From Vagococcus hydrophili (GTDB taxonomy: Bacteria; Bacillota; Bacilli; Lactobacillales; Vagococcaceae): 64,000 nt of DNA. The DNA lies in the NCBI RefSeq assembly GCF_011304195.1, contig NZ_CP049887.1, positions 434,001 through 498,000 of the forward strand, written 5' to 3'. This document shows, piece after piece, positions 5,211 to 63,051 of this stretch. The position numbers and the translations under genes are program-made. How positions within the stretch are numbered: the first letter of the stretch is position 1; the number at the start of each line of letters is the position of its first letter. The notes beneath the pieces are model-generated. The model was not told the DNA's origin. It searched no databases and was given only the letters and a program-made list of their open reading frames with translations.

Positions 5211-5247
5211 AACATATTTTTTTCACCTCTTTATTTGAACTTATTCG

Positions 5248-5256
5248 TGATATAAT
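5248..5256 (+). promoter_or_regulatory. extended -10 promoter of the holin-like toxin mRNA
   Basis: TGATATAAT, an extended -10 element, lies 55 nt before the toxin ORF. No good -35 at the usual distance is visible, which is common for extended -10 promoters. The predicted antitoxin promoter carries the identical element on the other strand. Confidence 0.45.
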
Positions 5257-5311
5257 ATCTCTGTAGAAAAGTTTTATGGTGGTGGTGATCCTGTATTGGA
5301 GGTGGTGGCTT

Positions 5312-5455
5312 ATGAATATAACCACTCAATCTAGGAAAGGAGAACCTATTTTGTCGATATCAGAAGCATTACAATTGATGATCGCCTTTGGGAGCTTTAC
5401 GCTGACCTTGGTCTCAACAATTGTTCTTATTCTGAAAAATGATAAAAAAAAATAA
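5312..5455 (+). CDS. putative holin-like (Hol_Tox/Fst-TxpA class) type I toxin
   Basis: A small membrane peptide of 47 residues from ATG 5312, or 34 residues from TTG 5351. GGAGG lies 9 nt before the ATG, and AGGAG lies before the TTG, so either start is possible. The core SISEALQLMIAFGSFTL followed by a hydrophobic helix and a charged tail (KNDKKK) is characteristic of the putative holin-like toxin family of Lactobacillales. These are membrane-damaging toxins of type I systems. The stop codon lies inside a bidirectional terminator hairpin and an opposing promoter sits downstream, the layout expected for a toxin mRNA overlapped by an antisense RNA. Confidence 0.78.
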   Translation: MNITTQSRKGEPILSISEALQLMIAFGSFTLTLVSTIVLILKNDKKK

Positions 5456-5566
5456 ACCATCGAAACTTTGACCGAGTTTTAGATATGGTTTATTTTTTAA
5501 TCATATAAAATTTATGTCACCATCTTAAATGGTTCTACATGGGAACGTGTTAGCGCACGTTCCTTT
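5443..5566 (-). ncRNA. predicted antisense antitoxin RNA of the holin-like toxin
   Basis: A minus-strand extended -10 (TGATATAAT, 5573-5581) would start an RNA near 5566. It would fold a 5' hairpin (CACGTTCC/GGAACGTG) and end at the shared hairpin 5451-5494, which has a T-run at 5443-5450 on this strand. The RNA would be fully complementary to the 3' end of the toxin message, as in Fst- and TxpA-type loci. No experimental support; boundaries are predicted. Confidence 0.55.
5451..5498. terminator. bidirectional terminator shared by toxin mRNA and antisense RNA
   Basis: AATAAACCAT (5451-5460) pairs with ATGGTTTATT (5485-5494). T-rich runs follow on the plus strand (5491-5498) and on the minus strand (5450-5443). 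An inner AAACT/AGTTT stem could extend the structure. The toxin stop codon lies in the left arm. Confidence 0.75.
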
Positions 5567-5568
5567 TT
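5542..5568 (+). terminator. second hairpin downstream of the toxin; 5' stem of the antisense RNA
   Basis: GGAACGTG (5542-5549) pairs with CACGTTCC (5556-5563) and is followed by TTTTTG on the plus strand. It can act as a backup terminator for the toxin transcript, while its complement would form the 5' stem-loop of the predicted antitoxin RNA. Confidence 0.65.
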
Positions 5569-5572
5569 GTTT

Positions 5573-5581
5573 ATTATATCA
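5573..5581 (-). promoter_or_regulatory. extended -10 promoter of the predicted antitoxin RNA
   Basis: Minus-strand TGATATAAT; no clear -35 hexamer at 17 nt. It points leftward into the 3' end of the toxin gene. Confidence 0.45.
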
Positions 5582-12520: not shown

Positions 12521-12563
12521 AAAAAGAGATTAACTCAGACATGTTGAGTTAATCTCTTTTTTT
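12521..12563 (+). terminator. strong terminator after the GH25 gene
   Basis: AGAGATTAACTCA (12525-12537) pairs perfectly with TGAGTTAATCTCT (12545-12557), followed by a T-run to 12563. Confidence 0.92.
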
Positions 12564-12564
12564 A

Positions 12565-12860
12565 ATTTCTCCGATTGCTTGGCGCTAATCACCTTTTTCA
12601 CTACATTTTTTTAGTTAGAGTTCAAAAGGCAACTCCCGCGACAATTTCACAACTAAAAATCAATCCGAAAGTCGTGGATTGGTTTTTAGTTCCTCCAATT
12701 GCTTGGAGCTAATCGCCTTTTTCACTACATTTTTTTAGTTAGAGTTCAAAAGGCAACTCCCGCGACAATTTCACAACTAAAAATCAATCCGAAAGTCGTG
12801 GATTGGTTTTTAGTTCCTCCAATTGCTTGGAGCTAATCGCCTTTTTCACTACATTTTTTT
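12565..12860 (-). repeat. 124-bp tandem structured repeat (two full units and one partial)
   Basis: Two nearly identical 124-bp units (12613-12736 and 12737-12860) plus a diverged partial unit (12565-12612). On the minus strand each unit holds AAAAGGC...GCCTTTT ends, a local CTCCAA/TTGGAG hairpin, a long hairpin AACTAAAAACCAATCC/GGATTGATTTTTAGTT, and the block GTCGCGGGAGTTGCC. Related copies with changed but still complementary stems occur at 59057-59168 and 62788-62911. The last unit supplies the final codons and the stop of the RelE-like gene at 12849. No ORF crosses it. It fills most of the 330 nt between the GH25 and RelE-like genes. Confidence 0.85.
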
Positions 12861-13256
12861 CCTTATACGTTTTGCTGCCTGTTTATATACTTCTAATTCT
12901 TTTCTCTGATCAATTGCGACCACACTAGCCATTAAATCTGCTTCATTTTTTTCTAAATCACTTCCTGTAATTGATACGACAGATACACCTAATCCATCAC
13001 TACTTATACTCAAAACCATTCGTACACCTAATTTAGGATTCTTTAGTTTATAGTAACCTTTTAAATTTATACCATTTTTATCTTCTAAAGGCTCAATTAC
13101 ACCACTGATTTTTAATTCGGCATAATTTTCTTCAACTCTTTTTATTACCGCAATCACCCACTTACGCCTAACACCATCTATTTTTTTGAAATCTTTTTTG
13201 GCATTATCAGTAAGTCCTACAAAAATCTTTGTTTTATCTTCCAAAGAGTTCCTCAT
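12849..13256 (-). CDS. RelE/ParE-like toxin (antitoxin partner truncated)
   Basis: A 135-residue protein with a RelE/ParE-like pattern: an N-terminal helix (LTDNAKKDFKKIDGVRRKW), a central GYYKLKNPKLGVRMVLSI strand region and VSVVSITGSDLE, then a helical tail. Such toxins usually cleave mRNA at the ribosome or poison gyrase. It starts at ATG 13256, overlapping the last codons of a truncated upstream frame that looks like its antitoxin. The last residues (KKM) and the stop come from the adjoining 124-bp repeat, so the original C-terminus may have been replaced. No functional antitoxin is visible, so the toxin is probably unexpressed or inactive, or is countered from elsewhere. Confidence 0.55.
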   Translation of the reverse strand: MRNSLEDKTKIFVGLTDNAKKDFKKIDGVRRKWVIAVIKRVEENYAELKISGVIEPLEDKNGINLKGYYKLKNPKLGVRMVLSISSDGLGVSVVSITGSDLEKNEADLMASVVAIDQRKELEVYKQAAKRIRKKM

Positions 13257-59005: not shown

Positions 59006-59056
59006 ATAAAACAGAGGCTGAGCCAGATGTCTGTATCTGCCTACTCTTTAATAGTA

Positions 59057-59168
59057 CAGGTTCAAATAGCAGCTCCTTGAGGTAAATTCAAAAACCAGCA
59101 GCAATCCGAGATACATGGATTGCTGCTGGTTTTTATAGTTACTTGAAGCTAAACGCCGCTTTCACCAC
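59057..59168 (-). repeat. dispersed structured repeat, copy at the ABC exporter 3' end
   Basis: On the minus strand it reads GTGAAAGCGGCGTTTAGCTTC, then a long hairpin AAAACCAGCAGCAATCC/CGGATTGCTGCTGGTTTT and GGAGCTGCTATTTGAACC. The order matches the 124-bp unit at 12613-12860. The hairpin tip CAATCC...CGGATTG is conserved while the lower stem differs but remains paired. It may also act as terminator of an upstream plus-strand transcript. Confidence 0.75.
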
Positions 59169-59173
59169 TCTGA

Positions 59174-60934
59174 TTATTCCACTTCTTCCTGAAATTGACT
59201 GTTGTACAATTTCTCGTAGAAGCCTTTTTTAGCTATTAATGTTTCATGATTACCTTGTTCGATAATATGACCTTGATCCATCACTAAGATTAAATCTGCA
59301 TCTCTGATAGTTGATAATCTATGGGCAATCACAAAACTTGTTCGGCCTTCCATGACTTTATCCATGGCCTTTTGAATTAAGCTTTCTAGTCGTGTATCCA
59401 CTGAACTTGTCGCTTCATCTAAGATGAGAATTTTTGGATCTGAGATGATCGCACGAGCAATGGTTAAGAGTTGTTTTTGACCTAGGGAAACATTGTCCCC
59501 TTCTTCATTAATCTCCATGTTGTAACCATCTGGCATCGTCCGAATGAAATGATCCACATTGGCTGTTTTAGCAGCGTCTACCACTTCATAATCTGTGGCA
59601 TCTAATTTACCAAAGCGAATATTGTCACCAAGTGTCCCACTATATAGCCAAGCATCTTGTAGTACCATGCCAAAGAGTGAACGCACATCACTTCGGTTCA
59701 TCTGTTTCGTATCAATGCCGTCAATCTTAATAGCTCCTTCTGTCACGTCATAAAAACGCATTAAAAGGTTAATTAAAGTTGTTTTACCAGCACCAGTTGG
59801 ACCAACAACAGCCACTGTTTGACCACTTTTGACTTCCACATTTAAGTTTTCAATCAACGGTTTTTCTGGATCATAACTAAATGACACATTTTCAAAAGTC
59901 ACGTGACCTTCAATTTTTTCTGGTAAAGGAATATCAGACTCGTTTAGGACTTCTTCTGGTTCGTCCATAATTTCAAACACGCGCTTAGTTGCAGCAGACG
60001 CACTTTGAATCACAGATGATAATTGGGTGATTTGTCCCATTGGTTGACTGACTTGCCATACATATTGAATAAAGGCTTGCAAGTTACCTAGTAACAAAGT
60101 TCCTTGAATGATGTAGTAAGAACCAAACACTGCTACTCCTACGTAAGCACTGTAAGCTGTTAAGTTGACTAAAGGCATCATCAAGCCAGAAAGTGCCGCT
60201 GCTCTAAAACCATTATGTGCCAATTTTTTATTAACAGCTTTAAAATCTGTCATAGTTTGCTCTTCACGTCCGTAAAGTTTCAAGACGTTAAATCCAGTAA
60301 GGTTTTCTTGGACAAAACCATTTAAATCTCCTAAAGAATCTTGTTGTTTTTTGAAATACTTTTGTGAAATACTAACAACCACTTTTGAAATAATGATTGA
60401 TAACGGAATAATGATAATAACGATTAACGCTAATTTTGTATTAATCATTAGCATCGCAACAATCGCAATGGTTAATCCTAAGATAGCATTAATAATCGCA
60501 ATAAAACTTTGTTGCATGGCATTACTCACCGCATCCACATCATTTGTGACACGTGATAAAACATCCCCTAATTGATTTTTATCAAAATAAGATACTGGTA
60601 ATCGGTTAATTTTTTTATCCAAGTCACGACGTAAATCTTTCATAGAATGTTGGACCACGTTTGTCATGAAGCGTTGTGACAAGTAATTGGCCACACTATA
60701 AATGACCCCAATAACCATCACCAAGACTAATACTTTTCCAATATAATCAAAATCAAGACCTTGACCATCTTTTATATTTTGTGCCACTCTTGTTGTTGGT
60801 AGACCTGTTATGTAGGGGAAAATACCATTCATTACAACAGCGACAATCGCCATGAAAATGGCTAAGAAAAAGTTACCTTTGTAAGGAGAGATGTAAGCAT
60901 ACAAACGACTTAGTAATCCGAATGATTTTTTCAT
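59174..60934 (-). CDS. ABC exporter half-transporter (catalytic-site partner, BmrD/LmrD-like)
   Basis: A 586-residue fused permease-ATPase with six TM helices (about 15-310). The nucleotide-binding domain has Walker A VGPTGAGKT, Walker B KILILDEATSSVD with the catalytic Glu, and H-loop VIAHRLSTI. The signature motif is degenerate, VSLGQKQ instead of LSGGQ. It overlaps its partner gene by 4 nt. The pair forms a heterodimeric multidrug-type exporter with one active site, made by this Walker A/B and the partner's signature. Confidence 0.94.
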   Translation of the reverse strand: MKKSFGLLSRLYAYISPYKGNFFLAIFMAIVAVVMNGIFPYITGLPTTRVAQNIKDGQGLDFDYIGKVLVLVMVIGVIYSVANYLSQRFMTNVVQHSMKDLRRDLDKKINRLPVSYFDKNQLGDVLSRVTNDVDAVSNAMQQSFIAIINAILGLTIAIVAMLMINTKLALIVIIIIPLSIIISKVVVSISQKYFKKQQDSLGDLNGFVQENLTGFNVLKLYGREEQTMTDFKAVNKKLAHNGFRAAALSGLMMPLVNLTAYSAYVGVAVFGSYYIIQGTLLLGNLQAFIQYVWQVSQPMGQITQLSSVIQSASAATKRVFEIMDEPEEVLNESDIPLPEKIEGHVTFENVSFSYDPEKPLIENLNVEVKSGQTVAVVGPTGAGKTTLINLLMRFYDVTEGAIKIDGIDTKQMNRSDVRSLFGMVLQDAWLYSGTLGDNIRFGKLDATDYEVVDAAKTANVDHFIRTMPDGYNMEINEEGDNVSLGQKQLLTIARAIISDPKILILDEATSSVDTRLESLIQKAMDKVMEGRTSFVIAHRLSTIRDADLILVMDQGHIIEQGNHETLIAKKGFYEKLYNSQFQEEVE

Positions 60935-62911: not shown

Positions 62912-63005
62912 CGTGAATAAAAAATCGGTTTGCTCTGAGTAACTGGAAGGAGCAGATTTTTTATTCCGGACTACAGCGTGATGAAAAAGGCGCTTAGCTC
63001 CAAAC
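62912..63005 (+). repeat. second hairpin and partial repeat copy
   Basis: GAATAAAAAATC (62915-62926) pairs perfectly with GATTTTTTATTC (62955-62966), with an inner TGCTC/GAGCA stem. It is followed by a partial repeat start, GTGATGAAAAAGGCGCTTAG (62979-62998), and CTCC. No gene lies in 62662-63057 apart from these elements. Confidence 0.7.
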
Positions 63006-63010
63006 AAATA

Positions 63011-63051
63011 AAAAAATAGAGTCCAACACGCAACGTCAGTCTCTATTTTTT
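63011..63051 (-). terminator. terminator of the small membrane protein gene
   Basis: AAAAATAGAG (63012-63021) pairs with CTCTATTTTT (63041-63050); T-rich on the minus strand after the stem. Confidence 0.75.

Follow-up and report, generated by a model that had tools for sequence, protein, structure and literature searches.

Repeat units in the window

The window, by which we mean the whole 64-kb stretch of Vagococcus hydrophili DNA analysed here, carries full, shortened and half units of a palindromic repeat at three sites. Each full unit, about 119 bp long, forms one interrupted hairpin, in which boxA (AAAAGGC-AGCTCC-TNCGG-CAACT) and boxB (AGTTGC-TTGGAGCT-AAACG-CCTTTTT) enclose a variable inner hairpin. 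The three sites comprise the following features (window coordinates):

12521..12561, plus strand: intrinsic terminator hairpin of 18 pairs, where site 1 begins (terminator scan and sequence)
12569..12611, plus strand: boxB half unit (3′ arm only) of site 1 (sequence; direct repeat D2)
12612..12730, plus strand: site 1, full unit 1 (covariance model match, contig 446612-446730)
12736..12854, plus strand: site 1, full unit 2 (covariance model match, contig 446736-446854)
59013..59047, plus strand: imperfect hairpin AGAGGC...GCCTACTCT just upstream of the site 2 unit (sequence read by eye)
59052..59170, plus strand: site 2, full unit (covariance model match, contig 493052-493170)
62787..62905, minus strand: site 3, full unit (covariance model match, contig 496787-496905)
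62910..62973, minus strand: mini unit of subtype B, AAAAAATCTGCTCC...GAGCAAACCGATTTTTTATTC, with the inner hairpin deleted (sequence; compare locus 239844)
62974..63007, minus strand: boxB half unit of site 3 (sequence; direct repeat D4)
63008..63049, minus strand: terminator-like hairpin with a T tract, AAAATAGAGACTGACG...TTGGACTCTATTTTTT, where site 3 begins (read by eye)

The terminator hairpin of site 1 has a T tract on the plus strand and an A tract on the opposite strand. The two tandem full units that follow (direct repeat pair D1) are 96 per cent identical, and the right end of the second overlaps the stop codon of a convergent ORF (12849-13256, minus strand). At site 2, the stop codon of a minus-strand ABC transporter ORF (59174-60934, Pfam) lies 4 nt from the end of the unit. 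The mini unit of site 3, only 64 nt long, belongs to a second subtype, whose boxes are of other sequence and still pair (AAAAAATCTGCTCC with GAGCAAACCGATTTTTTATTC). When the folding energies of three window units were compared with those of 200 shuffles, the z-scores were -5.2, -6.6, and -6.0, and none of the shuffles was equally stable.

A preliminary description of the window had reported a near-identical tandem pair and further copies near 59057 (plus strand) and 62788 (minus strand). All of these are present, with coordinates now refined by the covariance model matches; that inventory was correct for the full units and missed the half units and the mini unit. Elsewhere in the window, Rfam matches to rli28 (5241-5417, plus strand) and RatA antitoxin (5494-5581, minus strand) within 5241-5581 adjoin a short ORF for a small hydrophobic peptide, and this locus looks like a type I toxin-antitoxin pair.

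Copy number, location, and turnover in Vagococcus

A covariance model (R1), trained on 43 units drawn from the V. hydrophili genome and Vagococcus fluvialis, matched at least 150 units at no fewer than 95 sites of the single-contig V. hydrophili genome. What had been presented as a three-locus repeat family is therefore a real family of far greater extent, and the search for further copies in this genome and its relatives yielded many, both in Vagococcus and in Lactobacillales. A blastn search of the genome gave 71 matches, and a search with the boxA pattern added a few copies beyond those found with R1. The units are a non-coding palindromic repeat dispersed in intergenic DNA (95 sites listed); ORFs overlap units at 18 sites, but these are mechanical ORF calls and not evidence of genes.

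Among the 95 sites listed, 56 hold single units and 39 hold head-to-tail arrays of 2-6 units, which are never of mixed strand and are mostly spaced at 123 or 124. Units within an array are more alike than units of different arrays (0.81 versus 0.67 for the inner hairpin). Two sites, at contig 1766850 and 1770172, have the same right flank, a gene end that has been duplicated, and differ in unit number and left flank, and at contig 2222139 there is a hybrid unit that joins a 5′ half of the common Vagococcus type to an Enterococcus-like hairpin and 3′ half. The units show no orientation bias relative to replication (P-value = 0.22). The GC skew of the fetched pieces flips sign at about 1.1 and 2.35 Mb, and the contig start is therefore seemingly not the replication origin.

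The location of the element is well defined. A hairpin of -12 kcal/mol or better lies within 75 nt upstream of 72 per cent of sites, versus 9 per cent for downstream positions and 7 per cent for random ones, and at 68 of the 95 sites a boxB half stands between the hairpin and the first unit. Read in the orientation of the element, the flanking genes are arranged +- at 49 sites, -- at 24, ++ at 21, and -+ at 1; convergent pairs are thus far more frequent at element sites (49/95) than among the gene pairs of the window (7/55; P-value = 1.5e-6). At 73 of the 95 sites the gene to the right lies on the minus strand, and 67 of these 73 genes have their stop codon inside the element or at most 10 nt from its right end. 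The element therefore occupies the space that separates a terminator from the stop codon of the adjacent minus-strand gene.

V. fluvialis bH819, in which R1 detects 101 units, allowed the occupancy of individual sites to be compared. At 19 orthologous loci with matching flanks, chosen near V. fluvialis elements and so biased towards occupied sites, 8 were empty, 1 held only a half unit, and 10 were occupied. Arrays are labile: the unit counts of the 10 occupied loci differ between the species (e.g. 6 versus 2 and 5 versus 1). At contig locus 833842, V. fluvialis has a half unit only, and the extra unit is flanked by repeated CACGCTATTT. At locus 239844, a full unit of V. fluvialis corresponds in V. 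hydrophili to a mini unit that lacks the inner hairpin, a clear case of palindrome deletion. The empty sites come from this between-species comparison, their junctions are inexact, and both gain in V. hydrophili and loss in V. fluvialis fit them. No clear target-site duplication was found in this comparison, and the outer pairing was weak.

These placements could also be expected if the units were primarily functional RNA or terminator elements of the host, that is, bidirectional 3′-end structures which serve to terminate transcription, protect transcripts, or insulate convergent genes, and which have spread by duplication of the ordinary kind and not by transposition. Their placement at gene 3′ ends, their enrichment between convergent genes, and their deep structural conservation agree with such a role, as does the similarity of AAAAGGC...GCCTTTTT to a terminator stem with a T run. 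However, most sites already have an upstream terminator hairpin, the full units were not called by the terminator scan, and at 21 of the 95 sites the element lies between a same-strand terminator and the gene that follows it. Moreover, the element is missing at 8 of the 19 orthologous loci, and a copy number that ranges from 0 to about 150 within the genus Vagococcus is unlike that of a needed regulatory element. We therefore regard a primary host function as an unlikely basis for the family.

Covariation and the probable folded strand

In the 43 Vagococcus units, 96 per cent of cells are paired, and 22 of the 32 pairs change on both sides, which none of 500 shuffles matched. When the partners were slid relative to each other, pairing fell to 34-56 per cent. 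GCAACT and AGTTGC form a further conserved helix. All 32 pairs covary in the Lactobacillales set (score of 0.81 versus 0.21 in shuffles; 0/500 shuffles), and the same holds for other Bacilli (32/32 pairs; 0/500 shuffles on the covariation score), although the alignments A2 and A4, which were fitted to a model, are biased towards the structure of that model.

These results bear out the compensatory stem changes noted in the preliminary description and its expectation that covariation would exceed background once more copies were aligned, as seen in the Vagococcus and Lactobacillales sets. Two of its other proposals fared worse. The hairpin tip CAATCC...GGATTG, taken there as a conserved feature, is not family-wide, and the alternative local hairpin CTCC/GGAG, on which two mutually exclusive folds had been based, showed no covariation when tested. 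Two conserved unpaired motifs break up the five helices; on the 3′ side lies TAAACG and on the 5′ side either TTCGG or CTCGG, and both motifs stay unpaired from Vagococcus to other Bacilli families.

The mismatches within the helices are unevenly distributed between the strands. On the plus strand, A.C mismatches outnumber G.T mismatches by 130 to 39 (117 to 37 when counted once per site; 23 columns against 2). Because an A.C mismatch on the plus strand is a G.U pair on the opposite strand, this wobble tolerance points to the minus strand as the one that folds. The minus strand also folds more stably in 131 of 143 Vagococcus units, 43 of 54 Lactobacillales copies, and 17 of 19 copies from other Bacilli. 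The asymmetry thus favours the strand opposite to the one on which the structure was drawn earlier. The A.C to G.T ratio is 39:17 in other Bacilli and only weakly skewed in the Lactobacillales set (43:34). By class of flanking genes it is 64:19 at +- sites and 27:6 at -- sites, at which the abutting gene would transcribe the minus strand, and, more weakly, 26:12 at ++ sites, at which it would not. Since the excess extends to this last class, it need not reflect an effect on mRNA alone.

Covariation of this kind might, in principle, result from DNA template switching (quasi-palindrome correction) acting on a mobile palindrome, with no selection on an RNA or single-stranded DNA fold. G.U intermediates are very few, at some sites boxB is opposed by an exact inverted copy of itself so that the two form a perfect palindrome, and the TAAAC bulge of the unit at contig position 1311978 has been filled by an inverted copy. 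We infer that these palindromes and the filled bulge are products of template switching, and part of the covariation could come from the same process, which perfects palindromes. As an explanation of the whole pattern it is nonetheless improbable: correction would erase bulges and internal loops, yet TAAACG and T/CTCGG have stayed unpaired, and it predicts no asymmetry between A.C and G.T mismatches, but an asymmetry is seen.

Distribution, proposed mobility, and relation to known elements

Within the family Vagococcaceae, R1 matched 16 of 29 genomes, and across Lactobacillales it found copies in 60 of 246 genomes, representing 22 of 64 genera. A broader model (R2), built from 54 copies outside V. 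hydrophili and V. fluvialis, matched 23 of 300 Bacilli genomes, including families outside Lactobacillales. The layout is kept in distant copies (TAAACGG..., AAAAGGC-AGCTCC-TTCGG-CAAT, a variable hairpin, and ATTGCTCGGAGCT-AAACG-GCCTTTTGTCACAACCTC), and the R2 copies in Bacilli retain the boxes, with a head-to-tail period that is often again about 123. When 398 genomes were sampled across the phylum, matches were limited to V. hydrophili and one other Bacilli genome, and the non-Bacilli Firmicutes sampled gave no R2 match; the model is therefore not simply picking AT-rich hairpins. No match to the family was found in Rfam 15 at either gathering or relaxed thresholds. Intergenic copies occur on Enterococcus faecium and Lactococcus plasmids, and a plasmid search with the Vagococcus unit gave no match. 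Enterococcal-type copies were also seen in two Listeria phage records (OR846874.1 and OR849296.1) and a Klebsiella plasmid record (CP069369.1), where they are perhaps host or contaminant DNA.

Enterococci harbour a repeat, EFAR, whose original description by Venditti and colleagues in 2007 reportedly records lengths of 42-650 bp (most commonly 170 bp), a structure of two stem-loops, and targets that are themselves stem-loops. In about 249 kb of a chromosome-like Enterococcus faecalis record, R1, which contains Vagococcus copies only, found four copies, three with E-values between 7e-12 and 2e-10 and one at 7e-7; R2 recovered these four as well, with E-values of at most 6e-17. Each comprises a hairpin (GAGCGTGGGACAAAA...TTTTGTCCCACGCTC) and a unit, together about 170 bp in two adjacent stem-loops. 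In density (4 in about 249 kb), length, and paired stem-loops, these copies agree with Efa-1 of E. faecalis as described, a 163-nt intergenic repeat of 65 copies with a pair of adjacent stem-loops (PMC2267715); EFAR has been listed among the MITEs of enterococci (PMC3733652). It is therefore very probable that the Vagococcus repeat belongs to the EFAR family, the match to published EFAR being one of description. The E. faecalis record NZ_CP143580.1 is labelled a 747-kb plasmid but contains tuf, polA, and leuS along with the ribosomal protein operon, and so probably represents a chromosome that was wrongly split.

Among the boxA matches inspected, we found no autonomous copy or boxA-bearing IS, only further units, minis, and a hybrid, and no partner IS sharing terminal inverted repeats as expected of a MITE. 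The palindromes, strand asymmetry, intergenic positions, and arrays resemble in outline REP/RAYT-like elements, whose single-stranded hairpins are the substrate of a mobilising Y1 (IS200/IS605-type) transposase. However, units of about 120 nt are not the 20-40 nt of such elements, and the Y1_Tnp profile has no match in the high-copy V. hydrophili genome, although it matches five control genomes; with the enzyme absent, we consider this mobiliser very unlikely, while a past Y1 transposase, since lost, would still be compatible with these data. The RT of group IIC introns, whose insertion sites are intrinsic terminators and attC hairpins (PMC4424553), is another candidate mobiliser in view of the position of the units after terminators and the four group II introns of V. 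hydrophili with identical RT scores (contig about 226, 896, 1664, and 1711 kb), but it is highly improbable because RT does not track copy number (G003, G005, and G006, with 21, 8, and 3 units, lack RT, and G007, G008, and G013 have RT and no units) and the intron loci have no family match beyond a weak one (E-value of 0.005).

The repeat is probably the Vagococcus branch of a Bacilli-wide group of non-coding, hairpin-forming mobile repeats that includes EFAR, inserts beside terminators, expands in tandem, and is under selection for the folded form of its minus strand. This reading supports, in outline, the earlier suggestion of a non-autonomous mobile repeat or a structured RNA or terminator family. 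An element would insert in fixed orientation beside an intrinsic terminator hairpin, in the short gap before the stop codon of a minus-strand gene, presumably transposed in trans by an enzyme that it does not encode; the insert would be harmless because it sits between stop codon and terminator. Units would then multiply head to tail, probably through recombination or replication slippage between the repeated boxB and spacer sequences, and may shrink to mini or half units by palindrome deletion. Selection on the minus-strand fold may act on RNA, within the 3′ region of the gene that the element abuts, on single-stranded DNA while the element moves, or on both.

An orphan E. faecalis repeat would thereby be linked to a structured, Bacilli-wide family that has no Rfam entry and that reaches over 150 copies in one genome, at most sites ending a few bases from a stop codon. 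Now that the family has a covariance model and a defined target and its arrays are seen to be polymorphic, mobility and any effect on transcript 3′ ends become directly testable, and annotation pipelines could name many such intergenic units. More speculatively, EFAR may be one tip of a Bacilli-wide set of hairpin elements that seek out terminators and are recognised, through a folded minus strand with conserved bulges, by a widespread enzyme that they do not encode, in a form of mobility distinct from REP/RAYT, MITE/IS, and group IIC systems; we offer this as a tentative possibility.

Compared with known systems, the repeat shares insertion beside intrinsic terminators with group IIC introns but has neither ribozyme nor RT, and its distribution does not track RT. 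Like REP/BIME elements with RAYT, it is palindromic, intergenic, and clustered, whereas its units are much longer, are arranged head to tail rather than alternating, and occur in a genome without a Y1_Tnp gene. The bacterial MITEs RUP, BOX, NEMIS, and bcr1 are likewise small, intergenic, non-coding, numerous, and foldable; the Vagococcus repeat differs in lacking a partner IS or sharp terminal inverted repeats among those found, and in consisting of one interrupted hairpin with conserved internal bulges and no Rfam match. The closest resemblance is to EFAR/Efa-1, which is also intergenic, hairpin-forming, and without coding capacity, and whose stem-loop targets may correspond to the terminator hairpins that adjoin most Vagococcus sites. 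A Vagococcus half, a half with one unit, and additions of further units give lengths of about 45, 168, and 292, and these steps of about 124 fit the modular lengths of EFAR. In Vagococcus, however, the place of the first stem-loop is usually taken by an unrelated terminator of the host together with a boxB half (a terminator hairpin being present at 72 per cent of sites), arrays reach six units and copies exceed 150, and the family is widespread outside enterococci. The known part of this picture is EFAR, a little-studied kind of element described so far only in enterococci; its Bacilli-wide reach, full covariation, terminator-to-stop-codon location, and strand asymmetry are new.
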